Positions 1 through 30,119 of a DNA stretch of 64,000 nucleotides are shown here, one piece after another. The notes beneath the pieces are model-generated. The model was not told the DNA's origin and did not search any database. It saw nothing but the letters and a program-made list of their open reading frames with translations. The translations under genes were made by a program, and so were the position numbers. This stretch comes from Blepharisma japonicum (Eukaryota; Ciliophora; Heterotrichea; Heterotrichida; Blepharismidae): the NCBI GenBank assembly GCA_949751835.1, contig CATKHK010000067.1:1-64000 (forward strand), given 5' to 3'. Position 1 is the stretch's first letter. Each line of letters begins with the position of its first letter.

Positions 1-1281
1 TGAGTTTATAGTCAACAAAACTTTAAGCCTAGGCATTACAATTCCACAAACATCTACAATGAATGCAACTATTTGCCAAATTCAACTCAAAAAAGAAAGG
101 GAAAAAAATGAACAGCTTGAAAAGGAGTTATTTGAATATAGAAAAGAGAACATAGCTCAAAAAAATGAAATTGAGTGACTTAGAACAGAAATAGCTCGCT
201 TAAAAGGAATAATAAATGAGAATAAAAAAAGCTGCAAAAATCTCGAAAACTTAAAGAAGAAATAAACTCAAAAATGGAAAATGAGATGGATCAAATTCAT
301 TCTCAAATAATCAATCTAAATCAAGATCTCAAAAAAATCGATGAGATTATAAAGCCTCAAAGTCTACTTCAAGAATTAAGAGTCAAGAAATTAGAAATTT
401 AAATAAACCAAATGACCCAGAATTAGAAAAAGAATTTAGGGAAAATTGTTTAATCTACCAAAGCCATACCTGCATTAACAACCCACTTATTCAGCAAGCA
501 TATCAAGATTATAACCTTACTTACCTTCAAAAAACATCACTTTATAGTATTCAAAAAGTTAATGACAAAACTAATTTGTTTATTTATGATACAGAAAGAG
601 AAAGTAGAGAAAGTCAGAGTGTTAGAGACTCCTGAATCATTAGACCTTGGCACATGCATGGCTCAACTGCCTGGCGGCAATTTATTTTGTTTTGGTAGAA
701 GCTCTGTTTCTGGCATTTGCTTGATAATTGACGAGAATTATAGAATTCAACATCTGTCATCTGGAACTCCATGCTATTTTTCATCATCTATCTATTTCAA
801 TAATAGTGTTTATTGCTTTGGAGGATGTAATAAACATGAATTAACTCTATCAGAGAGATTTGATTTGAATGAAAAGCAATGGATTAAGTTAAAGCCACTG
901 CCGCAAGCTGATTGCAGCTGCACAAATATAATAGTTAATGGAAATATTTTGATTTCTGGATACCATAATAAAAATCTTTTGCGATATTCAATTGCTAGCA
1001 ACACTTTCGTGACAATTCCTTATGATTTTGTCATTCAGAAAGACAAAATCTTAATAAATTCAGAGAGATTATATTTAATTGAATGTGGACGTAATGGATC
1101 AGTTTATGAAAGTGAAGTTTCAAATGACTATGTCTGGAGAAGGATTGGAGATTCAATAATACCTGATTTTCATCAAGTATATCTCATATATAACAAAGGA
1201 GCAATAAACATTGCACATCGTTATCGTGATAAAATTACATACTTCAAGTTTAATTTGAAAGAAAAGACATTTTTAGAGTAG
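1..1281 (+). pseudogene. Decayed coiled-coil / kelch-like gene, 5' end outside window
   Basis: Coding-like sequence runs from the left edge to a TAG at 1279-1281 but shifts frame at least three times (near 255, 400 and 590), so it is not one open frame. The first 85 or so codons are a charged coiled coil. The middle carries a linker (QQAYQDYNLTYLQKTSLYS) that is also found in the intact kelch gene at 13,633-14,847. The 3' part (562-1281, 239 codons open) has kelch-like motifs such as VYCFGG followed by a W-x-KLKPLP strand, collinear with that gene. No zinc finger is visible; it may lie outside the window. Seen: frame breaks and similarity. Inferred: an inactive paralogue of the 13.6-kb gene. 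Confidence 0.6.
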
Positions 1282-1692
1282 CTAGTTTAAAATAAGTGGC
1301 TTAATGCATAGTTCTCTTTTAATACTCTTTGGCTATTAATTTTAAAAATTATATCATTGATCAATATAATTTATATAGTCATACACTTATTTAGCTAAAG
1401 ATAGGGCTGCAAATGTCCATAGAATATTATTAATAGATCTGCCGTTTGAAATTGACAATTTTCTCTCGCCCAATTACTCAACTTAAATCATCTTGTTAAT
1501 TCCAATAATTTTTGACGATATATTTTAGGCTTTGCAAAATGTTCATTGGTCTTATAAGCATTGATTTTGAAATGTAAATTTTATGAAAAATAATCACTTG
1601 TATTATAAACATAATTTTATAATTAAATAATTATAGAAATCTATGAATGAGAAGCTATTTTCAAAATTTTTAGAATTTCCTCAAATCCACTT
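1282..1692. other. Intergenic, no gene seen
   Basis: AT-rich spacer after the kelch-like pseudogene. I found no open frame of useful length, tRNA-like fold or repeat in it. Confidence 0.5.
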
Positions 1693-1833
1693 TTAGGTGA
1701 TTTTTGATTGCAGATTCCCAATCTGAGCATTTTCCTCTGATAAAGCCTCCGATCTAGAAATTTTAGCAGGGTTCTTCTCTCCGCGGTATGCGGATGCTAT
1801 GTAGTTAATTAGACAAATTCAAGAGTTGCTCAT
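1693..1833 (-). CDS. Small hypothetical ORF, 46 aa
   Basis: An ATG-to-TAA frame of 46 codons on the minus strand inside an otherwise non-coding spacer, with one TGA read as Trp (start MSNSWICL). The bases inside it are less AT-rich than the spacer around it, including a GC-rich patch (ccgcggtatgcgg on the plus strand). I recognise no family. It could be a real micro-protein, a fragment of a former gene, or chance. Confidence 0.2.
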
Positions 1834-2012
1834 TGCTTTCTTATTAATTATTATAGAGTGATTGATAGTTGTTGCATGAAGATATAATCCTTTTTTGCAT
1901 TTGAGCAATACAATTTATTACGATCATGACGCGTTAAAAATCAAGCTAGCTTGCTTAATTTTCAATGAAATTCAGACATATAACTCAATAGCGTAATAAA
2001 GCCAGTAATAAA

Positions 2013-2295
2013 TTGGCCCAATCAAGATTTCGTAGGTCAGGCTCTAATTATCAAAGAGTAAGAGCTAAAACATCTGAGATTTTAAACAGAGCCAATAATA
2101 ACCTGAAACAAAGCAAGATTTTAGAAGAATATGGAATTTATATGAAAGTCAAAATTCTGTTTCTGATTTGCCATGACCCAAGTATATCAAGAATATGTCA
2201 AAGCCTATCATCAAATATTATCTCTTTATCTTATCGATAGATCAGACAAGACAACTAATTTGATTATTTATGACGCTGAAAGTGAAAGAGAATAG
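2013..2295 (+). pseudogene. Fragment of the zinc-finger/kelch gene family
   Basis: Two overlapping frames carry coding-like sequence. The second (about 2175-2295, ending in TAG) reads QVYQEYVKAYHQILSLYL and then NLIIYDAESERE, matching the linker of the kelch-like gene at 13.6 kb and of the pseudogene at 1-1281. There is no ATG at the 5' end and the frame shifts between the halves. It is best read as a broken remnant left by tandem duplication in this cluster. Confidence 0.45.
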
Positions 2296-2518
2296 TTGAA
2301 AGACTGAAATAAAAATCACATAAAAATTGAAAAAATAATATTCTCATTTTAATAACAAAAACATATAAAAAAATGCATGAAATGAGCTTTTAATTACTAA
2401 AAATCAAGCCAATAAATGCTTATGAATCTTAAAAACTGAATTAATTTTAACTAGCTTTAGTATATTAAAAGCTTAGAACTAAAATTTAATTATAATAAGA
2501 CAGCATTATAATAATTAT

Positions 2519-4381
2519 ATGGAGCTTATGCAATGTTTCGAGCAAGGGTGCAAGCGTGAGGTTATATATGCATGCCCATGCGACTCTCCTAAAATTTTAT
2601 CCTGTGAAAAGCATTTTGGAAAGCATTTGACCCAGCCTGATAAGGCTCATGATTTTGAGAGAATTTTTGTAGAGCCATGCAAAGGGACAAAAGAAGCGAT
2701 TCTTGGATTTTTTACAAAAGAGCAGTCAAAAAATAGCAAGCTGAAGGAAAAGATTCTGGCATCCTTTAGTCAACGCTTGATTGAATCAGGGAGCGACATT
2801 AAACTTTTAAACGATTTGGATTCAGGTTCAGCTGAGCTAAGCAATTATTTTACAAAGATTTCTCAAATTCAAAAATTATCAAAATCAGAGCAAGATCCTA
2901 TTATAGGGCTACTGAGTTTACAGCCTGATGAAGCTATTGAGAAATTAAGAAGCATTATCCCAGCTAATCGAAAATTGTACAGCAGTTCAAGATTATTTTG
3001 TGAGCTCAACGAAAAAGTTGAAAAAATGATTGGGCATTTTATCGAAGACAAATTTGAAACTTATTTAAATGCAAGACTCTCTAGTATAGAAAATACTCTT
3101 GAAGAGTACAATAAATCTACCAATTCAAGCAATAACAAACTTGAAGAAATAAGTAAAAGATTTTCTAACATAGAAAATAATTTTGAAAAGCACAATAAAG
3201 CTATTGATTCAAACAATGACAAATTTGAATCTTTAAGTAGAAGATTTTCTAGCATAGAAAATACCCTTGAAGAACACAATAAAGATACAAATTCAAGCAA
3301 TAACAAATTTGAAGAAATAAGTAAAAGATTTTCTAACGTAGAAAATAATTTTGAGAAGCACAATAAAGCTATTAATTCAAACAATGACAAATTTGAAGAA
3401 GTAAGTAAAAGATTTTTTAGCATAGAAAATGCCCTTGAAGAGCACAATAAAGATACAAATTCAAGCAACGAAAAATTTGATATTTTAAATACAAGATTCT
3501 CTAATATAGAAAATACTCTTGAAGAGTTCAATAAATATACCAATTCAAGCAATAACAAATTTGAAGAAATAAGTAAAAGATTTTCTAACATAAAAAATAT
3601 TTTTGAAGGCAACAATAAAGCTATTAATTCAAACAATGACAAATTTGAATCTTTAAGTAGAAGATTTTTTAGTATAGAAACTACCCTTGAAGAGTTCAAT
3701 AAGTCTACAAATTCAAGCAATAACAAATTTGAAGATTTAAGTAAAAGATTTTCTAACATAGAAAATACTCTTGAAGGATACAATAAAGCTATCAATTCAA
3801 GCAATGACAAATTTGAAGATATAAATAAAAGATTGTCTAACTTAGAAAATACTCTTGAAGAGCATAATAAATCTACTAATTCAAACAATAACAGATTTGA
3901 AGATTTAACTAGAAGATTTTCTAGCATAGAAACTACCCTTGAAGAATACAATAAAGCTACAAATTCAAGCAATAACAAATTTGAAGCTTTAAATAAAAGA
4001 TTCTCTAATATAGAAAATACTCTTGAAGAGCAAAATAAAGTTATCAATTCAAATAATGAAGAGCATAAAAAGATTATTGAATCAACGGGTAATGAATTTG
4101 CAAAAATAGCTAAAGTAACCGAAGAAATTAATCAAAATATAAGTGTACTAGAGGAAGAAAATTTAGATAAAGAGCTTAAGCAAGGGTTAATCAAGTATGA
4201 TATTGAAGATCCTCGAGATATTGAAGAAATAATAGACGAAAAAAAAGAAAATATTATGTTTTATCGTTGAAGGAAGAAATTAGAAGATATGAGAATTGAA
4301 GAAAATAAAGTTGCTGAGTTGGAAAAGCTTCATTCCATTTATATAAAGCTTAGATCAAAATCTATGATAGTTAGATCCTAA
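2519..4381 (+). CDS. B-box-like zinc finger protein with 12 x 28-aa coiled-coil repeats
   Basis: 620 aa when TGA 4268-4270 is read as Trp, ending at TAA 4379-4381. Residues 6-44 hold a B-box-like Zn ligand set (Cys6, 11, 19, 21, 29, His32, 36, 44), followed by the family signature EPCKGTKEAIL and a helical region to about residue 185. Then come 12 tandem units of 28 residues (four heptads each), predicted to form a long coiled coil, and an acidic helical tail. Units alternate between an LEEHNKDTNSSN type and an FEKHNKAINSNN type, so the larger period is 56 aa. The same finger opens the genes at 4714, 6937 and 13,633. B-boxes mediate protein contacts and oligomerisation in TRIM-like proteins; a scaffold role here is inference. 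Start chosen because the finger begins six residues in and the 5' flank resembles that of the 13,633 gene. Confidence 0.85.
3077..4084 (+). repeat. 12 tandem 84-bp units encoding a 28-aa coiled-coil repeat
   Basis: In-frame tandem array inside the 2519-4381 gene. Each unit reads roughly FSNIENTLEEYNKSTNSSN followed by NKFEEISKR. Alternate units resemble each other more than neighbours do in the first half, which points to expansion by 168-bp duplications. No unit has a stop or frameshift. Confidence 0.85.
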
Positions 4382-4421
4382 AAGAAATTGGTAATAATAA
4401 AAAATAGTATATGTTGAAGAA

Positions 4422-4610
4422 ATGATTAATGACATTTCAACGATGTCCTTTTGAATAGAAAAATTTCTTACCAGTTCATTGTGCTTTGCCTATTATAAAT
4501 TCTATGATTTTGACCACTCATTAGATATTCACACAAAAATTGCGAATATTGATCCAAATTTCGAGTTTGCCTATTTAATCACTTATTTAAATCAAAGTCC
4601 TAAGATTTAA
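4422..4610 (+). pseudogene. TPR-family remnant (62-codon frame)
   Basis: A short frame (ATG 4422, one TGA read as Trp, TAA 4608-4610) between the coiled-coil and TPR members. It contains FAYYKFYDFDHSLDIHTKI followed by ANIDPNFEFAY, which has the spacing of a degenerate TPR helix pair ending in the usual I-D-P turn. It lacks the zinc finger and full repeats. Likely the tail of a former TPR paralogue; a small functional protein cannot be excluded. Confidence 0.35.
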
Positions 4611-4674
4611 CTTTAAAATAAATAGAAGAGTGATTCTAAATATGCTTTAAAGCTTATATCATAAGCCTTTCCTC

Positions 4675-4713
4675 TTAGGAGTCTAAATTAATGGAAAATA
4701 TAATCCTAAGAAT
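4675..4713 (+). promoter_or_regulatory. Conserved 39-bp 5' flank of TPR gene
   Basis: The 39 bp directly before the ATG at 4714 (starting TTAGGAGTCTAAAT, ending AAGAAT) match the 39 bp before the ATG at 6937 with about six differences. This is the probable promoter/5' UTR copied together with the gene. Conservation could be recent duplication rather than function. Confidence 0.4.
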
Positions 4714-6387
4714 ATGAGCACCATAAGATGCTATCGGTCAAAATGTGACCGAGAAGTTGAATTTTCATGCAAGTGCACTTCTCCAGATACGTATTCTTGC
4801 AAGAAGCACTATGGAAACCATTGCATATCTAGTAAAGGACCTCATAATCCCATCTCATTATTTTATAAGCCTGTTGAAGGCACAAAAGAAGCGATCCTTA
4901 GCTTTCTTGAAGAAGAAAAATCAAAAATTGAAGAAACAAAAGTAAATATAATCGCTTCTTTTTCTCAAACTCTTTGCCGTTATCAAAATATCCTTGAACA
5001 AGTTTTAAAAGAAATTGACTCTTATTCTACTAAAATTGGCAATTATGCTGAAAAAATCTGGATAACACAAAATCTATCAAGATTAGAGAAAGATCCATCT
5101 TTAAATTTGTTATCTTTACAATCAAATGAAGCTATTGATAAAGTTAGAGCAATTTTTATAGCAAGATCAAATAATAACATTAAATTATTTTGCGATATAG
5201 AAAGACAAATTGATTCAATTATCAAGAGCTTCGATGAAGAAAAGTCCAAATTTATTTCAAATGAAATGCAAATTGAATTAAAAAACAATCTTAAAGAGGG
5301 AATGAATTTTAAGAATGAACAGGAAAATTTGCAGCTAGCACTAGACGAGTGTAAAGAAGCTCTCAGAATTGATCCAAATAATGCTGATGCATACAATAAC
5401 ATAGGAGTAATCTTCTATAATGAAAAGAGATATGAAGAAGCAGTAAAACCTTACAACGATGCAATTAGAATCAATCCAAATTCTGCAATTTATTATAGAA
5501 ATAAAGCAGATGCTCTAAAAAAGTTAGGCAGAAAAGAAGAAGCTATAGAATGCTATAAAGAAGTTCTCAGAATTGAACCAAATGATGATTTTGCATACTT
5601 TTGCATAGGAAATATCTTTGCAAATGAAAAGAGATATGAAGAAGCAGAAAAACATTACAACGAGGCAATTAAAATCAATCCACATGATGCACGCTATTAT
5701 TATAATAAAGGAGTTGCTCTTAGTGAGTTAGGCAGAAGAGAAGAAGTTATGGAATACTATAAAGAAGCTATCAGAATTGATCCAAATTATGCTGATGCAT
5801 ACAATAACATAGCAAGTATTTTATATAATGAAAAGAGATACGAAGAAGTAGTAAAATATTGCAACAATGCAATTAGAATCAATCCAAACTCTGCACTTTA
5901 TTATACAAATAAAGGAGAAGCTCTCAGAGAGTTAGGCAGAAGAGAAGAAGCTACAGAATGCTATAAAGAAGCTATCAGAATTGATCCAAATGATGTTAAG
6001 GCACACATAAACATAGGAATTATCTTTGCAAATGAAAAGAGTTATGAAGATGCAGTAAAACATTACAACGAGGCAATTAGAATCAATCCAAATAATGGAT
6101 TTTTTTATACAAATAAAGGATTAGCTCTATATGAGTTAGGCAGAAGAGAAGAAGCTATGGAATGTTTAGAAGAAGCTATCAGAAATGATCCAAATCATGC
6201 TGATTCATACTTTTGCATAGGATTTATGCTTCAAAATGTACAGAGATATGAAGAAGCAGTAAAACATTACAACGAGGCAATTAGACTCGATCCAAATAAA
6301 CTAATTTATTATAGAGCTAAAGGAAATGCTCTGGAGAAGTTAGGTAGAAGAGAAGAAGCTATGGAATGCTTTAACAGAATTAAATAA
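4714..6387 (+). CDS. B-box-like zinc finger + 10 TPR protein
   Basis: 557 aa, TAA stop. The N-terminal finger has Cys6, 11, 19, 21, 29 and His32, 36, 44, then the family signature EGTKEAILSFL. A helical linker spans about 70-200, and about ten 34-residue TPRs fill 215-557, preceded by a half repeat. TPRs come in two alternating types: one with NEKRYEEAVK and RINPNS, one with ELGRREEAMECYKEAIRIDPN, giving a 68-aa composite unit. TPR solenoids bind peptides or partner proteins; with a B-box-like finger this suggests an adaptor, but the partner is unknown. The paralogue at 6937 is in the same orientation with homologous 5' and 3' flanks, so whole-gene tandem duplication is clear. Confidence 0.88.
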   Translation: MSTIRCYRSKCDREVEFSCKCTSPDTYSCKKHYGNHCISSKGPHNPISLFYKPVEGTKEAILSFLEEEKSKIEETKVNIIASFSQTLCRYQNILEQVLKEIDSYSTKIGNYAEKIWITQNLSRLEKDPSLNLLSLQSNEAIDKVRAIFIARSNNNIKLFCDIERQIDSIIKSFDEEKSKFISNEMQIELKNNLKEGMNFKNEQENLQLALDECKEALRIDPNNADAYNNIGVIFYNEKRYEEAVKPYNDAIRINPNSAIYYRNKADALKKLGRKEEAIECYKEVLRIEPNDDFAYFCIGNIFANEKRYEEAEKHYNEAIKINPHDARYYYNKGVALSELGRREEVMEYYKEAIRIDPNYADAYNNIASILYNEKRYEEVVKYCNNAIRINPNSALYYTNKGEALRELGRREEATECYKEAIRIDPNDVKAHINIGIIFANEKSYEDAVKHYNEAIRINPNNGFFYTNKGLALYELGRREEAMECLEEAIRNDPNHADSYFCIGFMLQNVQRYEEAVKHYNEAIRLDPNKLIYYRAKGNALEKLGRREEAMECFNRIK

Positions 6388-6897
6388 TTATAAATTGTTT
6401 AATCTTATAAATAATAAAATATATTTTTATAGATTCCTTATATTTGTTATATTATATAGATTTATTAAAATTTAACAGTTAAAGCTACAAACTTTAAATA
6501 AATTTAAAATACATTAAAAATAATATTTTGCTTTGATAAAGAATTTAAAATAAGCCTTTTGCATCATGCATAAGGCACCGATAATCTGAATTGACAGTTG
6601 TATATGTTTTAAAAGCCTTTTAAACCCTGCTGACCTTAATCTCCATTCAATTTAGTTTCACTTATAGCAATCCTACACATAATATGGGTGATTTTACCTG
6701 GTGTTGACTTATCAGATTGCTACATATGTAAAAGAAATTTCATTAGATGCAAAAAATTAAATCTCCTCAGCTAAGGGAATAAAATGAATTAATAGTTAAG
6801 CTAAATTTTCTTTAGTTAATCATCACTTTTTAAATTTAATTAAACTTGTAATAACTATTACAGGATTTCGTGCAATCTGAAGTCCAATATAATTGAC
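6388..6897. other. Intergenic spacer, homologous to other TPR 3' flanks
   Basis: No gene seen. The first 120 bp (AATAATAAAATATATxTTTTTAGAT and onward) resemble the sequence after the TPR gene ending at 8412, so it is part of the duplicated unit. The rest is AT-rich with no usable frame. Confidence 0.5.
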
Positions 6898-6936
6898 TTA
6901 GGAGTCTAAATTTAACGAAAATATAATTGTAAGAAT
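6898..6936 (+). promoter_or_regulatory. Conserved 39-bp 5' flank of TPR gene
   Basis: Counterpart of 4675-4713: same length, same start (TTAGGAGTCTAAAT) and same AAGAAT directly before the ATG. Probable promoter/5' UTR or simply a duplication footprint. Confidence 0.4.
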
Positions 6937-8412
6937 ATGAGCACCATCAAATGCGATTGGGCAAAATGCGACCGAAAAGTTGAGTTTTCATGCAACTGCG
7001 CTTCCATTAATAAGTATTTTTGCAGAGAACACTGTGGGACTCATTGCATAACTAGTAAAGGACCTCATGATCCCATCTCATTATTATATGAGCTTGTTGA
7101 AGGCACAAAAGAAGCGATCCTTAGCTTTCTTGCAGAAGAAAAATTAAAAATTGAGCAAATAAAAGCAAATCTCATTGCTTCTTTTTCTCAAACTATTTGT
7201 AGTTATGAAAAAATATTTGAACGAGTTTTTAAAGAAATCGATTTTGATTCTACAAAAATTGGCAATTATATAGAAAAAATCTGGAAAACTCAAAATCTAT
7301 CTAGATTGGAGATAGATTCGGCTTTAAATTTGTTAGCTTTGCAATCAAATGATGCTCTTGATAAAGCTAGAGTAATTTTTACAGCAAGAGCAAATAAGAG
7401 CATTGAATTATTTTGTGATATAGGAAGACAAATTGATATAATTATCAAGAGCTTCTATGAAGAAAAGTCCAAATTTATTTCAGATGAAATGCATTTTGAA
7501 CTGAAAAACAATCTTGAAGAGAGCATTAACTTTGAGAATAGACGAGAAAAGTTACAGCCAGCACTAGCCAAGTGTAAAGAAGCTCTCAGAATTGATCCAA
7601 ATGATGCTGATGTATACAATGGCCAAGGAGATATTTTCTATAATGAAAAGAGATATGAAGAAGCAGTAAAACATTACAACGATGCAATTAGAATCAATCC
7701 AAACTCTGCACTTTATTATACAAATAAAGGAGATGCTCTATATGAGTTAGACAGAAGAGAAGAAGCTATGGAATGCTATAAAGAAGCTATCAGAATTGAT
7801 CCAAATGATGCTGATGCATACAATAACATAGGAATTATCTTGAAAAATGAAAAGAGATATGAAGAAGCAGTAAAATATTACAACGAGGCAATTAGAATCA
7901 ATCCAAACTCTGCACTTTATAATAGAAATAAAGGAGTTGCTCTAAATGAGTTAGGCAGAAGAGAAGAAGCTATGGAATGCTATAAAGAAGTAATCAGAAT
8001 TGATCCAAAATATGCTGATGTATACAATAGCATAGGAAATGTCTTCTATAATGAAAAGAGATATGAAAAAGCAGTAAAACATTACAACGATGCAATTAGA
8101 ATCAATCCAAACTCTGCACGTTATTATTATAATAAAGGAAATGCTCTTAGAGAGTTAGGCAGAAGAGAAGAAGCTATGGAATGCTATAAAGAAGTAATCA
8201 GAATTGATCCAAATAATGCTAATGCATACTTGGGCATAGGAAATATCTTATATGATGAAAAGAGATATGAACAAGCAGTCAAACATTACAACGATGCCAT
8301 TAGAATCAATCCGAACTCTGCACTATATTATAAAAATAAAGGAAAGACTCTAAATGCGCTAGGCAGATGAGAAGAAGCTATGGAATGCTTTAACAGAGCT
8401 AAAATATTATAA
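6937..8412 (+). CDS. B-box-like zinc finger + 8 TPR protein
   Basis: 491 aa. TGA 8368-8370 is read as Trp, where its paralogues have Arg in the GRREEAMEC motif; the frame then continues to FNRAKIL and TAA 8410-8412, matching the C-terminus of the 4714 paralogue. The finger has the same eight ligands at the same positions (Cys6, 11, 19, 21, 29; His32, 36, 44). About eight TPRs alternate in the same 68-aa pairing. It differs from its upstream paralogue mainly in repeat number. Adaptor role inferred as for that gene. Confidence 0.87.
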
Positions 8413-9035
8413 AATGCATAATCTAACAATAATAAAATATATCTTTTTAGATCTCGATTTATTATATATATAGTTTTATTAAAGCTAGCTGTTAAAGAAA
8501 CAAACTTTACTTTAAAAAAAGATTGAAAGAAATGAATCTGTTTATAAAAATAGAGCGAAGAATAAGCTAACCCTTTGAAATGAACTTAAATAACTTTTAA
8601 TCCTAGATGATGCCCATTAATCTGCAGGTAAAGTAGCTATTGCGATATAGACCTAACATTTCAAGGATAATAGATTGGAGAAATTCTTTAAATCAATGAT
8701 GAAATGAAAAATTGCTGAAATAGGCTTAAATGATTAAGATATGTTTAAGTGATTAAAATAATACTGAACAATATAAATTAATTTTGAATAATAAACTATT
8801 TTCCTTATTTTATGCTCATCTTTAGCTCTAATGTCTAGATGGCGTTTTCATTTAAATTCCAAAGTTAAACCAAGAGTTCGAACAATCATACTCTTGTCAA
8901 ATTTACAGTTCTAGCTGGGATTTTCATTTTAAACAAAGCTGGCCAAATTTCGTTCTCGAAACTTATTCAAAAGTGTTATTATTTGGCATTTAATTTGATC
9001 GCTAACTCAAACTATTTGTAATTATCAAAATATAT
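8413..9035. other. Intergenic spacer with homologous 3' flank and decayed 5' gene sequence
   Basis: 8525-8655 is clearly similar to 10,910-11,030 downstream of the next TPR gene (shared GAAAGAAATGAATCT, TATAAAAATAGAGC and CAGGTAAAG), so 3' flanks were copied with the genes. From about 8990 the sequence is a decayed copy of the SFSQTIC region that follows the finger in intact paralogues. Confidence 0.5.
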
Positions 9036-9251
9036 TTGAACAAATTGGAAAAAAACGACTCTGATTCTAGTTATGTAGAAAAAATCTGGATAACACAAAA
9101 TCTATCTAGATTGAAGATAGATCCGGCTTTAAATTTTTTAGCTTTGCAATCAAATGATGCTCTTGATAAAGCTAGAGTAATTTTTAAAGCAAGAGCAAAT
9201 AAGAGCATTGAATTATTTTGTGATATAAGAAGACAAATTAATATAATTATA

Positions 9252-10829
9252 ATGAGCTTCTATGAAGAAAAGTCCAAATTTATTTCAGATGAAATGCGTT
9301 TTGAACTGAAAAACAATCTTGAAGAGAGCATTAACTTTGAGAATAGAGGAGAAAAGTTACAGCCAGAACTAGACAAGTGTAAAGAAGCTCTCAGAATTGA
9401 TTCAAATGATGCTGATGCATACTTGGGTATAGGAAATATCATCTATAATGAAAAGAGATATGAAGAAGCAGTAAAAAATTACAACGATGCAATTAGAATC
9501 AATCCAAACAATGCAGGTTATTATCATAATGAAGGAAATGTTCTATATGAGTTAGGCAGAAGAGAAGAAGCTATTGAATGCTTTTTAGAAGGTCTCAAAA
9601 TTGATCCAAATGATTCTGTTGCATATAATAGCATAGGAAATATCTTCTATAATGAAAAAAGATATGAAGAAGCAGTAAATTATTGCAACGATGCAATTAG
9701 AATCAATCCAAACTATGCACTTTATTATACAAATAAAGGATTAGCTCTGGAGCAGTTAGGTAGAAGAGAAGAAGCTATGGAATGCTTTTTAGAAGCTATC
9801 AGAATTGATCCAAACCATGCTGATGCATACATATACTTAGGATTTATCTTCTATAATGAAAAGAGATATGAAGAAGCAGTAAAACATTACAACGATGCAA
9901 TTAGAATCAATCCAAATGATGCACTTTATTATTATAATAAAGGATTATGTCTTGGAGAGTTAGGCAGAAGAGAAGAAGCTATGGAGTGCTTTTTAGAAGC
10001 TATCAGAATTGATCCAAATTATGCTGATGCATATAATCGCATAGGTAATATCTTTTATAATGAAAAGAGATATGAAGAAGCAGTAAAAAATTGTAACGAT
10101 GCAATTAGAATCAATCCAAATGAAACAATTTATTATACCAATAAAGGATTAGCTCTTAGAGATTTAGGCAGAAGTGAAGAAGCTATGGGATGCTTTTTAG
10201 AAGCTACCAGAATTGATCCAAATTATGCTGATGCATACAATCGCATAGGAAATATCTTTGCAAATGAAAAGAGATATGAAGAAGCAGAAAAATATTACAA
10301 CGATGCAATTAGAATCAATCCAAATGATGCAAATTATTATCATAATAAAGGATTAGCTCTTAGAGATTTAGGCAGTAGTGAAGAAGCTATGGAATGCTTT
10401 TTAGAAGCTATCAGAATTGACCCAAATAATGCAGATGCATACATAGACATAGGAAATATCTTCTATAATGAAAAAAGATATGAAGAAGCAATTAAACATT
10501 GCAACGATGCAATTAGAATTAATCCAAATGATGCAGCTTATTATCATAATAAAGGATTAGCGCTTAAAGAGTTAGGCAGAAGAGAAGAAGCTATGGAATG
10601 CTTTTTAGAAGCTCTTAGAATTGATCCAAATGATTCTAATGCATACAATGGCATAGGAAATATCTTCTATAATGAAAAAAGATATGAAGAAGCAGTAAAA
10701 AATTGTAACGATGCAATTAGAATCAATCCAAACTATGCACTTTATTATACAAACAAAGGATTAGCTCTTAAAGAGTTAGGCAGAAGCGAAGAAGCTATGG
10801 AATGCTTTAGCAGAGCTAAAGATTTATAA
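9252..10829 (+). CDS. TPR protein (14 repeats), N-terminally truncated paralogue lacking the zinc finger
   Basis: The frame is open from about 9036 to TAA 10,827-10,829, but the first in-frame ATG is 9252 (525 aa). Before 9036, sequence homologous to the post-finger region continues in another frame with a shift in an A-run near 9048 and lost bases near 9005, and the zinc finger itself is absent. About 14 TPRs follow, the longest array of the cluster, with ECFLEAIRIDPN replacing ECYKEAIRIDPN. The long clean frame suggests either recent truncation or that a finger-less TPR protein is still made. Confidence 0.65.
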   Translation: MSFYEEKSKFISDEMRFELKNNLEESINFENRGEKLQPELDKCKEALRIDSNDADAYLGIGNIIYNEKRYEEAVKNYNDAIRINPNNAGYYHNEGNVLYELGRREEAIECFLEGLKIDPNDSVAYNSIGNIFYNEKRYEEAVNYCNDAIRINPNYALYYTNKGLALEQLGRREEAMECFLEAIRIDPNHADAYIYLGFIFYNEKRYEEAVKHYNDAIRINPNDALYYYNKGLCLGELGRREEAMECFLEAIRIDPNYADAYNRIGNIFYNEKRYEEAVKNCNDAIRINPNETIYYTNKGLALRDLGRSEEAMGCFLEATRIDPNYADAYNRIGNIFANEKRYEEAEKYYNDAIRINPNDANYYHNKGLALRDLGSSEEAMECFLEAIRIDPNNADAYIDIGNIFYNEKRYEEAIKHCNDAIRINPNDAAYYHNKGLALKELGRREEAMECFLEALRIDPNDSNAYNGIGNIFYNEKRYEEAVKNCNDAIRINPNYALYYTNKGLALKELGRSEEAMECFSRAKDL

Positions 10830-11514
10830 AATGCTTAATCTTATCATTATTTATTAATTTAAATAGATTTTAAAGTAACAAACTTTTTACCAATTTTAAA
10901 ATAAAAGCCTAAAAGAAATGAATCTACTTATAAAAATAGAGCAAAAATAAATAAGCTCTTTGAAATGCTATTTGGACTACTACATAGCTTTTAATCCCTT
11001 TACATTTCAGGTAAAGCTGCTATTGCCTTATAAAAGACTGAAGTATTATTAATTGCCTTAAGGCTTTTTATAGGTAAAATCTTTTAGGAGGCATCTATAG
11101 ATAATAATTTATTACATTAAACTCAAATATAGGAAAGACTTGCTTAGCTACTAAAAGCAAAGTCTATGTATCCATATTGGCTCAGATTTGCACTATTAGC
11201 TATTCTTGGTTACTATCCAAAGTACCTACAAATCATAATATATAATAAGATTTAATTAAAAAGGTGTAATTGATAAATCGCATAAAAAAATACTTCTAAG
11301 TCGCTTTTGCAAATTATCACTAAGTCAGGGAACGCAAACATAAGAAAAATGTAATGAATTTTTAGAATTCTGAATTGTGAAATCTACAGTAGTTGTTAAA
11401 AAGAACATCATAAAATCGAAGAAAAAAAAAATTTTATTTTCTCGATTTAAAAGCTTAATCATCTAATAATAGAAAATTATTAATTTTGGATTTAAAATAT
11501 GTATATATATAAAT
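10830..11514. other. Intergenic spacer, no gene seen
   Basis: Begins with the homologous 3' flank of the TPR genes (about 10,910-11,030). The remainder is AT-rich and I see no supported gene or RNA. Confidence 0.5.
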
Positions 11515-12486
11515 ATGAGCAATAATCAGAATACATTAGAAAGGACGAAAATATATGTTGGGTCAAATTTATTTGGATTTGATAAGTGTGAGAAATGTGG
11601 AAGCTTATTATCTGGTAGAGATCAAAGAGTTGTTTTTGATTCGTTTAATACGTATCATTATAATTGCTTCGAGCCAAATTTCAAGCAATTTATATTAGAA
11701 AATGACGTAAAATATTTTATTGAGGGTCAAATTAAAGAAAATTTTAAGATATGATTAGAAAATTGGAACAAAAACTATCCGCCAGTTGGCATCTCAACTT
11801 TTCAGTACAAAAAGCATATAAAATCATCAAAGCCCAAATTTTTCCGTATTTGGGTTGAAATATTGAAATTTTTAACTCCAAATGAGCTTGGAAAATTATC
11901 TTCTGTCAGCAAAGACTTTTATTATTTATCATGAGAAGACGAAATATGAATTTCAATTTTAAATCAAAATAAATCAAATATTACTGGCTGAAGAAACAAA
12001 TATTTAATTGAAAATAAATGCTATGAGTGCAATAGGATAATGAATGACTGAGAATATTTTTGCCCACTTCTACAGAGAAATATATGTGGGTCATGCAGGT
12101 TCTGAAATAAAAAATATGAATTATATGATGAAAATGACATCTCTAATATTTTCGGAATAAATTCAAGATTTTTAAATATCAAATTAGGATATGGAAGCAA
12201 CAATAATAGACTTACGTATAGATTTTTAATTGAAAAAGCAATATTAAAATTTAGAAAGAGAAATAAAGAAAAAATCTTAGAAAAGTATAAGGCTTGGGTG
12301 CATTTTAGGGAAATTAAGGAAATTTTAGATATTATTGATATTCATAGTAGCTTTGATCCAAAAGTTAACAATTGCAAAATAAAGAATAATCATTATGCTT
12401 CAAGATTAAAAGAAATTGCTGATTATATTTATTATAGAAAAGGAGATGAACATTTTCTTAATTCTTTATATAATATAATATCATAG
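11515..12486 (+). CDS. F-box-like protein with two zinc-binding motifs
   Basis: 323 aa with six in-frame TGA codons read as Trp; TAG stop. Residues 20-60 carry CEKCGSLL, then a Y-H-Y-x-C-F motif, a spacing that resembles LIM/PARP-type fingers. An F-box-like helical motif follows at about 105-150 (FFRIWVEILKFLTPNELGKL then SSVSKDF). Next comes a second Cys cluster (C-x2-C, then C-x7-C-x2-C) at about 165-195. F-box proteins link substrates to SCF ubiquitin ligases via Skp1; assignment rests on the F-box-like stretch only, and the substrate is unknown. A decayed relative lies directly downstream at 12.76-13.5 kb. Confidence 0.65.
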
Positions 12487-12759
12487 TGATTCAAACTATT
12501 ATTAAATTATATAATCTAGTAGAAATTAGATATTGAATTTTACTGTCTAGATATTCTACTTAATTAAGCCGAATTTTGTCATGATAAAATTTAATTTGTT
12601 TTTTATAGACAAATGATGATAGTACAAAATATATCAAATAGATTATATTAGGTACTTTATGCACCAATATGTATAATTTAAACACAATTATAATAGATTC
12701 ACTAAAAAGATCAATTAACTGCTATAAAGAGCATGCATCAAAGTTATAATTACTTATTA

Positions 12760-13516
12760 GCAGAAGTAGATGCTTTATGTGTGATAAATCAATTTGAGAA
12801 GATTTCAGTACCCGAAATATTGGAGAAACTCAATATTATCACTTAATTTGCTTTGTTTCGAAATATAATCAATGCATCAATCTAAAAATAATAAATATAA
12901 AACTGCATTAAAATCTATCCCTGCTAAAGTGATTGCAAAAGTTTGAGTTTGTAATTGGGAATAAATTCCGCAGACAGAATTGCTTTTTATAAATGGATTT
13001 CTGATATTTCTCCTTGATCAAAAAAATCTGAATTGAGATTTTAAATTACTCCCCCCATTGAGATTGCAAATATAATGCAGCTTCGATTTTTTTGTAAAGA
13101 ATATGGGAAATAAGAATGACTTGAGAGAGAAATTGATGATTCCATGACGAAGTGGAGATATTCAGGAAGAATGAGAATAATGGAATTAGTGGATTAAGAG
13201 AATTAGTTTCCACCAAGGAATTTGAGAAATGATGTCATGAGATTTTGATCGAGCAGCTAGATAAGAGAGAGATGCTTTAGATGACAAAGATGCCTAATCC
13301 TTGAGAATGGAGAAACTTCTGAGGATGCTAGATCAATTATTGCCAAAAATCCATTTATATAATGATTTTGAAAGAGATATATTTGGTGTGGATAAAAAAA
13401 AGTGCTTTGGTTCAAATGATAAAGAAATTAAATATTTTAATAAATTAATAAAACTCTTTGGGTTTTATCCAAATAGCCTAATGGTTTATTCACGACTATT
13501 TATTATGAAATCTTAA
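12760..13516 (+). pseudogene. Decayed paralogue of the F-box zinc-finger gene
   Basis: Coding-like patches in different frames. At 12,770-12,880 a frame reads RCFMCDKSIWEDF and then YYHLICF, matching the first zinc motif of the gene at 11,515. Further patches (SADRIAFYKWISDISPWSKK near 12,970; LRELVSTKEFEKWCHEI near 13,200) contain TGA-coded Trp but are separated by shifts and stops. The last patch (13,301-13,516) is open for 71 codons, though without a good start. Seen: similarity and broken frame. Inferred: tandem duplicate now inactive. Confidence 0.5.
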
Positions 13517-13632
13517 AAACTTTTATATCAAGATTAAAAGAAGGTAAAAATCCGATTAATAAATAATCTATAATTTGGCTAAATTTATATCTATACAAAT
13601 ATGCTTTATAAATCAACAATTATAATCATTAT

Positions 13633-14847
13633 ATGGAGGTGAAGAAATGCTTCGAGCCCGGCTGTGCAATTGAGGCTAAGATAGCATGCTCATGCTGTTC
13701 TCCTGAGACTTATTACTGTGAGCCGCATGCTAGAAAGCATATAGAAATGCCTAATAAAGCTCATATCTTAGAGCCTATTATTGCAGAGCCTCGCAAAGAA
13801 AGAAAAGAAGCAATTCTCTTATGTCTTGAAAAAAAAGAGTCAAAGAAGGTCAATCTAAAAAGTGAATGATTAGAATACCCTGGCGAGAATCTTTTTGCTT
13901 TAACAAATTATTTGATAAAAAGGAGATCTGAGATCGAGAATTTACCTAAAGACCAAAATCTCGAGCAAGAATTCAGAAGTTTTTCCTCATCATATGAGAA
14001 GAACCAAGATGACTATCAATCATCAGGATCACTTATTAAAGCCTATGAAGACTATGCCAATATATATTGTCAAAAAACAGCACTTTATAATATTAAGTAC
14101 GAATATGACAATATTGTTTTACATATTTACGAAACTGAATTAGAAAGAAAAGACTCCAAATTATTGTTTCCCCCAAACCAATTAGACTTTAGTACTTGCA
14201 TAACTCAGCTTCCAAATAGAAAATTATTCTGTTATGGTAATAAAAATAATTCTGGGGTCACGCTGCTAATTGGTCTTGATTGCGAATTTGAAATATTGCC
14301 ATCTGGAAAACCTTGTTGTATTTCATCAGCAATCTATTTCGACAACAATGTGTATTGCTTTGGAGGCTGAAATGATAAACTTCTTAGCCTCTCTTCTAGA
14401 TTTGATTTGAGGACTAAAAGATGGGTTAAATTGACTCCATTGCCAGAAACAGATTCTGGTTGCTGTAGTATAATATATAATAGGAATATTTTGATATCTG
14501 GATACAAGCGTAAAAATCTTTGGCTATATTCAATTGATATTGAAGCTTTCTCAACAATTCCTTATGAATTTTCAAAGCTGAAGAAGAAGATTCTATTAAA
14601 TACAGAAGAGAGACTGTATCTAATTGAATGCACGGAAGTACTCTATGAATGTGAAATTGGGAGTTATACTAATTGAAGCAGAATTAGAGGCTTAACAATC
14701 AATCATAACCCATCTCAAGTTTATTTATCATTCAATAAAGGCGCGATATATATTGGGTGCAATTATGGCTGGAATCAACTGAGGTATTACAAGTTTAATT
14801 TAGAAAAGAAATCGGTTGAGTATGCTGATAGCACCGCCTATTTTTAA
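13633..14847 (+). CDS. B-box-like zinc finger + kelch-like protein
   Basis: 404 aa once three TGA codons (the first at 13,867) are read as Trp; TAA 14,845-14,847. The finger has the family ligands Cys6, 11, 19, 21, 29 and His32, 36, 44, followed by EPRKERKEAIL. A helical linker includes the DYANIYCQKTALYNIK segment shared with the remnants at 1-1281 and 2.2 kb. The C-terminal half has kelch-like strands: NNVYCFGGW, SRFDLRTKRWVKLTPLP, NILISGY. Kelch propellers bind partner proteins. This is the only intact kelch member in the window. The bases before the ATG (ATAATxATTATATGGAG) resemble those of the 2519 gene. Confidence 0.82.
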
Positions 14848-22772: not shown

Positions 22773-23747
22773 CTATTTGATTCAAAAAACTTGTCCACAA
22801 TTGCATATACGTTCTTGGCTGTTTCTTCCATATTTATTGGCTAAGCAATTATTGCACAGTTGTCTGCATGAGCACAGGCATGCTTCTATATTTACATAAA
22901 CTTTACAGTCCTTACATAAAATAAAATTTGCAAAGCTGGCTCTTACATCTTCAGGAAATAAATATCCATCTCTAGGGCAAGATGCAAGTTGGTGCTGAAA
23001 AATACAAAAATTGCATACTTTATTGCAGCATAACTTACTGATATTCATATAATTCTCTATATCTGGAATTAAGTGATTGCAAACTTCACAATACCCATGA
23101 TTTGGCAAAAGTTCCCTCTCCTTTATAGGTCCTAGATATTTTATATATCCAAATCCTTTTCATTTTTGAACCAAAGCATCTAGAAACAGGTCTAATTCTA
23201 TATCAGTATACAAGCTGAAAACGACTTTTTTTAGTCTAATTTCTCCAAAATTTTGGAAATTCCCTGCAAAAACTATAAAAGCCTCAATGTGCCTTAGAGC
23301 TGCCTTTTCAATTGGATACCCAAAAATGCCACAAGAGATTCCAGGGATTCCAATTGAATTGTAGCCTAATTTGTCGGCTTCAATAATTGAAAATAATATC
23401 GATTCGAAGAGAGTTTCGCGATAATATTCTGTTTCTTTTAGTCCCTCAAAGACTGGCCCAACTGTGTGAAAAATTGACTTGAATTTTAAATTTCCTGCTG
23501 ACGTTACTACAACTTTTCCAGGCATGACAATATAATGTTCCCTAATATATTTATCGCATTCTTGTTGAACTATTGGTCCTGCAGAGTTAATGATTTGTCC
23601 TGCTAATCCTCCAAGATTTCGAAGTTTGTCATTTGCTGCATTTACAATCACATCAACGTTTAGATCCAGGATACTCCCTTGCCTAATTTCTAGTACAATG
23701 CCATTCAGAATTCCTTCTGCACATAAAACAGGTTCTATAGATGCCAT
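22773..23747 (-). CDS. Macro-domain protein with C-terminal zinc-binding domain (copy 1)
   Basis: 324 aa; TGA codons at 23,160-23,162 and 22,782-22,784 are Trp, and the true stop is TAG 22,773-22,775. Residues 1-195 form a macro domain: VDVIVNAAND, GGLAGQI, GKVVVTSAG, FHTVGP and GIPGISCGIFGYP are the ADP-ribose-binding loops. Residues 220-320 hold a Cys/His-rich domain (C-x2-C, CC-x3-C-x2-C-x3-H, C-x2-C, C-x-C-x3-C-x2-C) reminiscent of RING/IBR folds. Macro domains bind or remove ADP-ribose. Linking this to ubiquitin is inference. The next gene is a paralogue in the same orientation. Confidence 0.85.
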
Positions 23748-23948
23748 TTTAAAGCCTTGGTTGCAATATTAAAAAATTATAGAAATTTATTTTTCAATTG
23801 TAATAACTAGGAAGTTCATTAGTACACATTTTAAGAAAGTATGATGGTATTTGATAGAAATTTAACCTTTTTGTCTATCAAAATATATTCCAAAATTTTG
23901 GCCAAACTTTATTAGGTGCTTTAAATAGCAATTATCATCATAGTTAAC

Positions 23949-24911
23949 CTAAAAGCTAATTTTATTACCACAGATACACTTCCTCGAACCATTGGAATCA
24001 ATAGGTATGTTGTATGCACATGATGCACAAATTTGCCTGCAAGAGCAGCCCATTTCTGAAGTAGACTTATAGACGCAGCACTTTCGACACAAAATATTAC
24101 TGTATAAGCTGTTTATAACATCATCTGGGAACCGAAACTGATCGATTGGACAAGTTGCTAGGCAATGCTGAAAAATGCAATAATTGCATACCTTGCAACA
24201 GCATGCTTTAGTAATATTCATATATATTTCTTTGTTGTCTATTGACTGATTGCATAATTCACAAAATCCGGTATTTGTCTTGCGTGCTCTCTCTTTAGCC
24301 GAACCAATAAATTCAACAGTGTCAAATGTCTCAAACTTTTGCCATAAAGCAGTTAAAAATGAAGAGAGCTCTTCTTCAGTGTACAAACTGAAAGTAATTT
24401 CTCTTACAGAAATATTTTGATTATTTTGAGCAAACATTCCTGCATATAAAATAAAAGCCTCCAAATGCCTAATTGCAGCCTTATCAATTGGATATCCAAA
24501 TATTCCACAAGATATTGCTGGAATACCTATTGAGCTAATATTTGAGTTATTAGCATAAATAATCGATTCATAAACAGCTGAAAACAAATCTTGCCTGTTT
24601 CTTTCGTTTTCTTGTTTATTTTCCACTCTTGGTCCAACAGTATGCAGTATTTTTTTAAAATTCAGCCTTCCTGCTCTAGTTTCAACAATTTGTCCTATTC
24701 TAATGGTCCCGAATCTTGAAATCACTTGATCGCATTCATTTTGGATGCTATCACCTCCACTTTCGACTATTTGATGTGCAAGTCCCCCAATATTTTGAAG
24801 TTGCTCATTTGCAGCATTGACAATTGCGTCTACTTTCAAGTCTAATACACTTCCTTGTCTAATTTCCAGGATAATATCATTCAAACTTGCTCTTGCACAT
24901 ACATTTGACAT
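23949..24911 (-). CDS. Macro-domain protein with C-terminal zinc-binding domain (copy 2)
   Basis: 320 aa, TAG stop. Same order as its downstream neighbour: macro domain at 1-205 (VDAIVNAANE, GGLAHQI, GQIVETRAG, LHTVGP, GIPAISCGIFGYP), then a Cys-rich domain (GFCELCNQ, CCCKVCNYCIFQH, CRKCC, CSCRQICASC, CICG). The ligand spacing is conserved between the copies while linkers differ, so both domains appear to be under selection. Ancient tandem duplicate, older than the 25-33 kb duplication. Confidence 0.85.
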   Translation of the reverse strand: MSNVCARASLNDIILEIRQGSVLDLKVDAIVNAANEQLQNIGGLAHQIVESGGDSIQNECDQVISRFGTIRIGQIVETRAGRLNFKKILHTVGPRVENKQENERNRQDLFSAVYESIIYANNSNISSIGIPAISCGIFGYPIDKAAIRHLEAFILYAGMFAQNNQNISVREITFSLYTEEELSSFLTALWQKFETFDTVEFIGSAKERARKTNTGFCELCNQSIDNKEIYMNITKACCCKVCNYCIFQHCLATCPIDQFRFPDDVINSLYSNILCRKCCVYKSTSEMGCSCRQICASCAYNIPIDSNGSRKCICGNKISF

Positions 24912-24959
24912 GCTTTCAGATATTTTATTTAAGCCTTTATAGAATACTTATTAAATGAA

Positions 24960-25961
24960 TTAATAATATTTAACTCCATCACGTCATAACTCTTCATGTC
25001 TGGTTCCTTTAGGAGTTGTCCTTACTCCTCTGTCATCTTTTTTGTTATCCTTGAATATTCCTCTATATTTAGACTTATCTCTATAGATAATCATGCCTTT
25101 GCCATGTTTTTTATCGTCTTTAAAGTACCCGTTATATATATGCCCATCTTTCAGTTTCATTTTTCCTCTTCCACTTCTTTTATCGTCTTCCCAATTCCCT
25201 TCATATATGTCTCCATTGGAATAGATCATCTCTCCATAACCTTCATATTTGTCTTTGACAAAATCTCCTCTATATTTAGATCCATCAGACCACTCATAAA
25301 TCCCTTGCCCATGCTTTAAACCATTTATAAAATCTCCTTCATATAAAGACCCATCATAATAATACATTTTTCCTTTCCCATTCATTTTATCATTCGACCA
25401 ATACCCAATATAGCTATTTCCGCTTTGTCATTTTTGCAGCCCAAACCCTTCTCTTTTATCATCAACAAACTGTCCTGCATAAGTAAACGATCCTTGGCTT
25501 ATTAAAACTCCAAACCCATTTTTCCTGCTGCTTCTGAATTCTCCCCTATATAGTACTCCATTTTCCCACATGTAAACCCCATATCCATGCTTCAGTTGGT
25601 TTTCTGAATCCCCATAAAATCCGGGCTGATACTGATGATAGCAAGATAAAAGTTCTTCAATTTTCTGTTCCAAAGTGCTTCTATCATACGGGGTGTGATG
25701 CACCATTTGTTTAGGCAAAGACTGTGATTTGGTATAGTCTGAAAAACGGTTCAATAGGTCAAGGACAATATAGTTTTTTGAAATATCATGAGGATCTCTT
25801 CGATCGACTTGCCGATCATGGGGGCATTCAATATGCTGGTGTCTTGATTTTATATCATTTATACAGACTTTACAAAATGTGTGGCCACATAAGAGTTGCA
25901 GGGGTGTATGATCGGCTTCATTGAACTCTTCGAAACAAATATCACAAACAATTTCTTCCAT
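24960..25961 (-). CDS. RING finger + MORN-repeat protein (complete copy A)
   Basis: 333 aa with TGA codons (near 25,428 and at 24,984) read as Trp; TAA 24,960-24,962. An N-terminal RING-like motif (CDICFEEF, LLCGHTFCKVC, CPHDRQ) is followed from residue 110 by about nine MORN repeats (for example GSLYEGDFINGLKHGQGIYE). MORN arrays bind membranes or scaffold cytoskeletal structures; the RING suggests an E3 ubiquitin ligase. ATG 25,961 is chosen because the RING starts there. The start of the divergent FHA gene is only 15 bp away. Part of the ancestral tandem-duplicated block. Confidence 0.85.
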
Positions 25962-25976
25962 TTTCTGATTGAAATA

Positions 25977-27530: not shown

Positions 27531-27666
27531 AGATTGAATTTTCAATAATAAATTTCTTCAAATAAACGGATAGCTAAAGATTTATTCAATTTTTTAATTC
27601 AATAAATGAATCTAAATTTCCTTTTGGAAGTATTAATTATATATGTATTTGATTAAGAAATTTATA

Positions 27667-28099
27667 ATGGGATGCTGCTCTTATGACCGTCAAATTGAAA
27701 ATGATGTAGATGATCTTGGAAATCCTAACTCGGCGTTTAATAACCAGCTTATTTCACTAAAAATTGTTAGCTCTGGGTCAGTCTCAGAACTCAAACAATT
27801 TCTTGACAGAGGATTCCCTACTAAATACAAAATGCCAGCATTCAATGGTGCTACTATTTTGCATTTGGCAGCAGAAAAAGGAAAAGCTATTAATGAAATA
27901 AGGAGCGGACATCGAAAGTTTTGATGATAGAAAGATGACTCCAATATTTTACTCAATAAAAGGGCGAAATCAAGAATGTTTTCGGGTATTAATAAAAAAT
28001 TACAATGCAAATCTAAATGTTGCTAATTCATATGATAAAAGCGTTTAGGATTATTTAAAAGAGGATCCAAATTTTTATAATGTGGCGTTATCTCATTAA
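27667..28099 (+). pseudogene. Ankyrin-repeat gene, copy A (broken)
   Basis: Nearly identical to the intact gene at 31,728-32,174 until AAEKG, where a small deletion replaces the NPGMIKLLIEYGAD segment and shifts the frame; a TAG also replaces CAG in KSVQDYL near 28,047. Host gene duplicate that lost function after the segmental duplication. Confidence 0.85.
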
Positions 28100-28178
28100 A
28101 ACCCGTTATATAGCAATAATAATCTTTATTGGTTTCAAAAACTTGAGTGCATAACTTATAATTCATCTTTTAAATAAA

Positions 28179-30101: not shown

Positions 30102-30119
30102 TTTCTGATTGAAATAATC

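Follow-up and report, generated by a model that had tools for sequence, protein, structure and literature searches.

Four genes lying between positions 2,519 and 14,847 of a 64,000-nucleotide stretch of Blepharisma japonicum DNA (the window, which is the start of contig CATKHK010000067.1) begin with the same cysteine- and histidine-rich finger and end in different domains, which raises the question of what a constant front end with changing rear ends does in a ciliate. A first-pass annotation of the window had likened them to a diversifying recognition or scaffold system. We followed the four genes, here called g1 to g4, through the whole 45.2-Mb assembly (224 contigs) and consider it probable that they belong to a large family of modular, diversifying recognition receptors; these would probably be intracellular, and by analogy they would most likely serve in cytosolic defence or in recognising non-self. 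TGA encodes tryptophan in this genome, and with that reading the finger region resolves into single-frame genes, which hold one (g1), none (g2), one (g3) and three (g4) in-frame TGA codons. In Blepharisma stoltei UGA is likewise reported as tryptophan (PMC9942806; this and the other papers cited are drawn on in excerpt).

The pattern C-x4-C-x7-C-x-C-x7-C-x2-H-x3-H-x7-H opens all four genes. Among 25 aligned fingers chosen as intact (24 from 59 finger stretches and one from locus L044), the eight ligands C6, C11, C19, C21, C29, H32, H36 and H44 are the only invariant columns, which bears out the proposal that the four genes share one eight-ligand finger at the same positions. The EGTKEAIL signature attributed to all of them is exact in g2 and g3, while g1 has KGTKEAIL and g4 has KERKEAIL. 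The finger had been called B-box-like, and in the number and order of its ligands the resemblance stands, but at E values up to 1 none of the 25 fingers matched a B-box or a RING model in Pfam. The same genome contains 77 stretches that match the B-box model PF00643 at E up to 0.01, 71 of them scoring above the cut-off, and none lies within 400 nt of any of the at least 203 finger places described below; on these two results the reading as a known B-box was rejected. With E values up to 1 allowed, thirteen other Pfam families hit between one and three of the 25 fingers, the best at 0.0044; we take these matches as chance, although one of the families, SF3a60/Prp9 C-terminal, which matches a single member at 0.063, contains a zinc finger. 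One member matches in NCBIfam at 0.014, and a finger profile found nothing related in the PDB (best E 0.16). By these searches the finger is undescribed in the libraries used.

Like the zf-B_box family PF00643, whose fold is a cross-brace with two zinc ions, the Blepharisma genes have a Cys/His-rich finger with a similar number of ligands followed by helical and coiled-coil sequence; they differ in that the B-box model does not match the finger. In the g4 model, finger residues 1-40 are predicted at a pLDDT (predicted local distance difference test) of 72-78, with a strand at 17-19, a helix at 30-37 and a strand at 46-48; zinc binding by the finger is putative. RING was also absent from the Pfam results for the N-terminal pieces of g1, g2 and g4 taken alone. 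The finger genes of the window open directly with the finger, so they lack the N-terminal RING of the TRIM type. A coiled coil after the finger, as in TRIM proteins, is present in g1 as an array of 84-bp units and in similar form in its relatives; g4 and the TPR genes are without this array.

The finger is far from confined to this locus. Three merged genome searches, broken copies included, gave at least 203 distinct finger places on 93 contigs, and the first finger query returned at least 150 scored matches, every one with E <1e-15, so that at the level of sequence similarity the paralogue number is far beyond chance. Two kelch searches, again with broken copies included, gave at least 175 kelch places on 93 contigs; only 27 of the 77 kelch stretches in the DNA examined are near full length. 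When places less than 15 kb apart are linked, 132 of the 203 listed finger places fall into 42 clusters and 71 are solitary, so the clustering noted in the window is real and partial. The cluster in the window (1-14000) has a GC content of 28-30% over the first 14 kb, against 30-37% in later 2-kb bins. For Blepharisma species, 1,722 duplication events have been placed in their common ancestor (PMC10810533).

Many copies lie near contig ends. Among the 20 finger places ranked next after g1, 19 are within 20 kb of an end; 14 of the 20 are on contigs >90 kb, and 13 of these 14 are again within 20 kb. The telomere repeats of B. stoltei are reported as CCCTAACA (PMC9942806). Here, TGTTAGGG repeats were present on one of 14 contig ends inspected, that of contig C171, with a finger about 5 kb away. 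Because several contigs end inside family copies, as expected where repeats break an assembly, we claim no subtelomeric location.

In the DNA examined, the general order of the family runs from the finger through a helical part to a head, and in many members a coiled-coil stalk, variable in length, precedes the head. The gene g4 (13633..14847, forward strand, as are g1 to g3 and the two broken copies described below; single open frame) carries a finger, a short helical part and a kelch domain at 14038..14820. The kelch assignment draws on a local profile match over positions 1-261 of 264, Pfam Kelch_6, kelch sequences in the PDB, and structure comparison by Foldseek and by VIA-align, whose listing spans g4 residues 179-404 only, the finger being outside its range; kelch motif and propeller fold together place it in the kelch-repeat superfamily. 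No relatives of g4 were found in viral contigs. The gene g2 (4714..6387) joins the finger module to 11 TPR stretches (Pfam TPR_1, 3.0e-87), and repeat analysis gives its array at 5352..6379 a 204-bp period, that is two TPRs, in 5.0 copies. The gene g3 (6937..8412) has the same layout (TPR_1, 7.8e-74). Its AlphaFold2 model reaches pLDDT of at least 90 at 258 of 491 residues, and ten-residue blocks from 221 onward average at least 86, while the finger and helical part are poor (34-64). The 34-residue arrays of g2 and g3 and the helical repeat model of g3 are those of the TPR superfamily.

The gene g1 (2519..4381, single open frame) consists of a finger module (about 2519-3075; the finger with its eight invariant residues, defined by alignment, is residues 1-62 at 2519..2704), a coiled-coil array at 3086..4052 (11.5 copies of the 84-bp unit by repeat analysis, with matches to coiled-coil families) and an unrelated tail at 4046..4378. 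The first reading had counted the TPR, kelch and coiled-coil parts as alternative C-terminal partners. This holds for the TPRs of g2 and g3 and the kelch domain of g4; the array of g1 was rejected as a binding domain of its own, for in close relatives it is the stalk that joins finger and kelch. It is in the tail that g1 differs from its relatives. This tail was recognised by its matches elsewhere in the genome, to eleven other stretches on contigs C14, C98, C169 and C208; they sit in open frames of up to 968 residues, and no listed finger place coincides with any of them.

Elsewhere in the DNA examined the heads are kelch, TPR, or kelch followed by TPR (on C203, C205 and C216). The longest TPR head, on C110, has nearly identical repeats in an open frame of 1,110 residues, and a head on C88 has TPRs followed by a ZZ-like finger (ZZ E 0.001; 19.3 bits, below the cut-off of 21.4). 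The same type of kelch domain also stands behind a protein kinase. Among the at least 175 kelch places, 80 follow a listed finger at a distance of no more than 3 kb and 11 follow a match to a kinase-coiled coil query, including the gene cut at the window start; among the listed matches none has both, and 84 of the 175 have neither. Conversely, 82 of the 203 listed fingers are without a listed kelch or TPR-type linker. Read directly, locus L009 encodes a kinase domain (Pkinase, 2.3e-35, over profile positions 91-263, where the locus ends), a coiled coil and a kelch domain, and the linker of this kinase gene is 74-84% identical to those of three finger-kelch genes. In the window, 1..1281 is what the contig start has left of a gene of the protein kinase-coiled coil-kelch type, namely its 3' part, which is divided between reading frames. 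Positions 2-232 (2-253 translated) match the kinase-coiled coil query over its residues 155-231, at 90%, and a kelch piece at 571-1278 matches kelch clade X, defined below, at 79%; by sequence, the kinase domain would fall beyond the contig start. Together with a 5'-truncated TPR copy at 9006..10829 (14 TPR stretches, no finger found), this gene confirms that broken copies lie in the cluster.

Two further loci touch on these architectures. On C138, at 54333-55301 of the reverse strand (coordinates only), kinase-coiled coil homology stops three codons, in frame, before a TPR-type finger, and a kinase-finger-TPR fusion is possible there. At locus L013 on C98, what by eye looks like an ordinary kelch-BTB gene lies directly upstream of a 5'-truncated kelch copy at 12979.

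To what extent do heads move between stems? We placed 43 N-terminal modules out of the 59 finger stretches in a quick-search tree, leaving out short and truncated ones. Head labels on this tree need 12 changes, against a mean of 25.4 for shuffled labels (0 of 200 shuffles as low), and the 11 TPR-type modules sit in one group of 12, the intruder being a single long-branched kelch row (support 96). Because the labels need few changes and the TPR-type modules form nearly one group, we may conclude that the kelch/TPR split is old and that most heads have passed down together with their stem. Within one clade (support 99), nevertheless, eight near-identical modules, g1 among them, carry three heads of kelch clade X, three of kelch clade Y, one TPR-ZZ head and the odd tail of g1, the Y label of C199:15709, where the contig ends, being taken from the linker alone. 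Pairwise identities tell the same: members on C19 and C98 are 87% identical in the finger and 92% in the helical part, against 43% in the linker and 61% in the kelch domain, while those on C98 and C206 share 42% and 36% of their N-terminal parts, against 84% of the linker and 80% of the kelch domain. On these comparisons head exchange is real and recent, and is placed at or after the stalk. It is occasional, not free, and heads are mostly clade-bound; the notion of a fixed module with exchangeable domains stands for the eight stems with four tail types and fails as a picture of unrestricted swapping.

The strongest evidence on function comes from where the kelch domain changes. Codon analysis was made on 15 of the 27 near-full-length kelch domains, in two clades: X, with 10 genes, one being the kinase gene, and Y, with 5, one being the 5'-truncated copy C98:12979; the other 12 were too divergent and were left out. 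Averaged over gene pairs and taken across the whole domain, the ratio of nonsynonymous to synonymous divergence (dN/dS) reaches 1.07 in X and 1.34 in Y, against 0.37-0.61, by segment, in the N-terminal module (10 and up to 11 sister genes; dS similar). The kelch amino-acid changes lie in short patches, and the patches of one clade recur in the other. The 37 of 257 columns that are hot in X carry 137.8 of the 214.5 nonsynonymous changes in Y, where chance reached at most 72.3 in 20,000 permutations and 102 among circular shifts; they run at 5.8 relative to the domain dS and at 1.73 relative to their own synonymous rate.

On a strand assignment taken from the g4 model and the kelch motif, the hot patches correspond to the DA and BC loops of the propeller blades. 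These loops hold 310 of 440 nonsynonymous changes in 75 of 248 columns in X, and 173.5 of 213.5 in 73 of 245 columns in Y, against 34.3 (X) and 11.0 (Y) in the 43 columns of the AB and CD loops. Relative to the domain dS, clade X shows ratios of 2.20 (DA), 3.38 (BC), 0.77 (AB) and 0.40 (CD), clade Y 2.73, 5.31, 0.26 and 0.45 in the same order, and strands A, B and C only 0.11-0.51. A site model with a free synonymous rate for each codon (our own FUBAR-type grid, not the published program; posterior cut-off 0.9) placed 20 of 22 positive codons in DA/BC loops in X and 26 of 29 in Y, none in AB/CD, with 15 codons positive in both clades. In the N-terminal module the same model called 0 of 185 codons positive in one set (10 genes) and 0 of 186 in another (9 genes). 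In Keap1 the substrate surface lies on one face built from the DA and BC loops (PMC4668279), and in KLHL20 all DA and five of the six BC loops contact the peptide (PMC6720452). Read on the low-confidence model and by analogy with Keap1, positive selection is thus concentrated on the presumed ligand face of the propeller. Very hot kelch sites are also richer than other sites in Tyr, Asp, Gly, Arg, His, Trp and Cys (no statistical test applied).

The TPR heads point the same way. By pattern, 51 TPR units were taken from five genes, of which 41 fall in two classes (A, 18; B, 23) and 10 were left out, and rates were computed over unit pairs at least 70% identical in DNA. Positions 2, 5, 9, 12, 13, 33 and 34 are described as the most variable, concave positions of TPRs, and positions 2, 5, 6, 9, 12 and 13 as ligand contacts (PMC1261162). 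At the seven variable positions, the per-site nonsynonymous difference (pN) over the overall synonymous one (pS) is 3.27 in class A and 1.84 in class B, against 0.74 and 0.57 at the remaining positions. Of 100,000 sets of seven positions drawn at random, 2 (A) and 497 (B) matched their mean entropy. Variation at these positions is common to all TPRs, and for that reason we regard this pattern as support and not as independent proof. With codon-level positive selection on the presumed kelch ligand face and at concave TPR positions, and with the N-terminal module constrained, the proposal of a diversifying recognition system is supported. Neither of the two outcomes named beforehand as refuting it came about: the finger did not turn out to be a known B-box of one fixed architecture, and further paralogues exist.

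Several observations weigh against this proposal or blur it. Receptor function is deduced from sequence alone, and whole-protein Pfam scans covered six finger members (best 25 families for five of them, the complete list for g4). The loop classes were set after the hot columns were known, from DSSP of a g4 model with a mean pLDDT of 50.6 together with the kelch motif. Over three thresholds, the X-hot columns in Y stand only 1.47-1.81 over their own synonymous rate, other columns 0.81-1.18. Power is low: Y has five sequences, one of them (C98:12979) 5'-truncated, and at 0.9 the site model gave 40 purifying calls in X and 0 in Y, 100 in one N-terminal set and 2 of 186 in the other; from these uneven calls it follows that its power is uneven. 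Over their own pS, the seven published TPR positions reach 2.12 (A) and 1.14 (B). Within that set, position 33 changes slowly in both classes, as does 13 in class B; outside it, change is fast at 24 and 25 in class A and at 6 in class B. Finally, silent change is raised where amino-acid change is. In kelch X, synonymous changes per site are 1.94 at hot codons against 0.43 at others, and pairs with the same residue use different codons in 0.203 against 0.051 of cases.

Several causes could raise silent change in this way: convergence, older age, focused mutation, or path averaging where a codon was hit more than once. Focused mutation, or cassette conversion at hot codons, would supply diversity beyond what selection alone provides, and we think it highly improbable. 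Besides the excess in synonymous changes just given, it would account for third positions differing in 0.33 of pairs at very hot codons against 0.07 at cold ones, for same-residue codon differences that are four times commoner at hot codons in X and three times in Y (0.092 against 0.029), and for neighbours within two codons of a hot codon being just mildly raised (0.51 against 0.40). Yet a PHI-like (pairwise homoplasy index) test on 30 informative cold sites of kelch X found no spatial recombination signal (p 0.48; 44% of site pairs incompatible), and the site model, with its free synonymous rates, still calls selection. Diversity-generating retroelements leave adenine-templated NNY variation with a fixed third base; that pattern is not seen, and adenine-templated diversification was rejected on the third positions of very hot codons, which differ in 33% of pairs. 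A bolder version, which we hold to be very doubtful, is an anticipatory repertoire. In hundreds of proteins with a finger or kinase stem, the codons of the ligand face would be under active diversification, driven by focused mutation or cassette conversion on top of selection, and perhaps re-sorted at each new macronucleus. If true, a single cell would have something like an immune system that makes new specificities faster than ordinary mutation.

Other explanations accept the variation and give it a different cause. Relaxed constraint, with redundant or dying copies drifting and surface loops varying because nothing holds them, might be read from the common broken copies (27 of 77 kelch stretches near full length) and a whole-domain dN/dS near 1. 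The AB and CD loops, taken as the opposite side, serve here as an internal control: they too are surface loops and stay at 0.26-0.77 of the domain dS against 2.2-5.3 for DA/BC. The 20 (X) and 26 (Y) DA/BC codons above their own synonymous rate and the low ratios of strands A, B and C and of the finger module argue the same way, and we disfavour relaxed constraint as barely credible. A serious, though unlikely, alternative is that substrate adaptors or scaffolds for endogenous proteins, in the ubiquitin pathway for example, have multiplied and diversified to tag many host targets, with no link to non-self. The DA/BC face is also the one by which kelch proteins of the Keap1/KLHL type act as substrate adaptors (PMC4668279, PMC6720452), an F-box-like gene lies inside the cluster, and the same kelch type is joined to a kinase. 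On general grounds, however, endogenous targets are not expected to push dN/dS above 1 in most blades of near-identical paralogues, and neither BTB nor RING is among the Pfam families listed for the six whole finger members. Distinctly less likely in our view is self-recognition or mating compatibility, in which the heads would recognise proteins of other conspecific cells or strains. Fungal NLRs with TPR, ANK or WD repeats under positive selection are tied to non-self recognition (PMC4986451), and Blepharisma has mating types; these, however, are reported to secrete gamones, a glycoprotein and a small tryptophan derivative (PMC9942806).

We favour the reading as a modular receptor family, which brings together what is directly observed: the copy number, the architectures in the DNA examined, the exchange of heads, the constraint on the N-terminal module, and positive selection at DA/BC loops and concave TPR positions. 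In such a family, the N-terminal module (finger, helical segment and often a coiled-coil stalk) would most likely oligomerise the protein and couple it to a common downstream partner, while the head at the C-terminus, whether kelch propeller or TPR superhelix, would bind ligand by its hypervariable face. Binding by these surfaces in Blepharisma would be signalled through the finger or the kinase. Duplication, partial clustering, occasional head exchange between N-terminal modules of either type and diversifying selection on the ligand face would together produce a repertoire of specificities, and the selective agent may be non-self in the form of bacteria, viruses, endosymbionts or other strains.

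Animals, plants and fungi are known to have large receptor repertoires whose binding faces are hypervariable. We found no description of one in ciliates among the results listed by searches of an open-licence library or by term search in the main texts of a few ciliate papers. If our reading is true, a free-living single cell has evolved the same logic of constant stem, exchangeable head and diversifying grip surface from other parts, including an unrecognised finger, and cytosolic immune or compatibility receptors in ciliates become directly testable. The kelch and TPR heads of the family, borne on constant frameworks, also make up a natural library of binders.

The rest of the window holds a few features of other kinds. 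Upstream of g1, at 2173-2295 (forward strand; frame read from the letters), a short remnant ending in TAG looks by eye like the entry of a kelch domain. The F-box-like gene inside the cluster, at 11515-12486, matches F-box with E 2.3e-04 (21.4 bits against a cut-off of 20.5), has six in-frame TGA codons and gives a weak PLATZ-like match (0.018). Two tandem macro-domain genes lie at 22776-24947 on the reverse strand (Macro, 6.2e-26 and 3.2e-28); both have a Cys-rich C-terminal part that is RING-like by eye, with no further Pfam family at E <=0.001. At 25343-33465 there is a tandem duplication with about 4.1 kb spacing and six matched stretches at 94-98% identity.

Among known systems, BTB-kelch adaptors such as Keap1 and KLHL20 share the kelch propeller and its DA/BC binding face (PMC4668279, PMC6720452), which is hypervariable here; a finger or kinase replaces the N-terminal BTB, and the Blepharisma paralogues form a repertoire under diversifying selection. 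The finTRIMs of teleost fish lie in clusters and number 84 genes in zebrafish; as described, they too combine nearly identical N-terminal zinc-finger regions with variable C-termini, positive selection focused in the recognition part of the C-terminal domain, and a head domain shared by shuffling with another receptor class (PMC2657112). They are built, however, of RING, B-box regions and a B30.2 head, whereas the Blepharisma proteins have the finger first, no B-box match, and kelch or TPR heads. Fungal NLRs are reported to combine N-terminal effectors with WD, ANK or TPR repeat heads, to keep high internal repeat conservation, which the C110 TPR head recalls, and to be under positive selection at predicted interaction surfaces (PMC4986451). 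Here kelch takes the place of the WD propeller, and the N-terminus is the undescribed finger with its helical part, or a kinase. The complete Pfam list of g4, with 6 families, contains neither NACHT nor NB-ARC, and neither is among the best 25 families of g1, g2, g3 and two other members. Because the family is without RING or a recognised B-box and shows no NACHT or NB-ARC among the families listed, we place it in neither group; by analogy it most likely works like finTRIMs and fungal NLRs, though from different parts.

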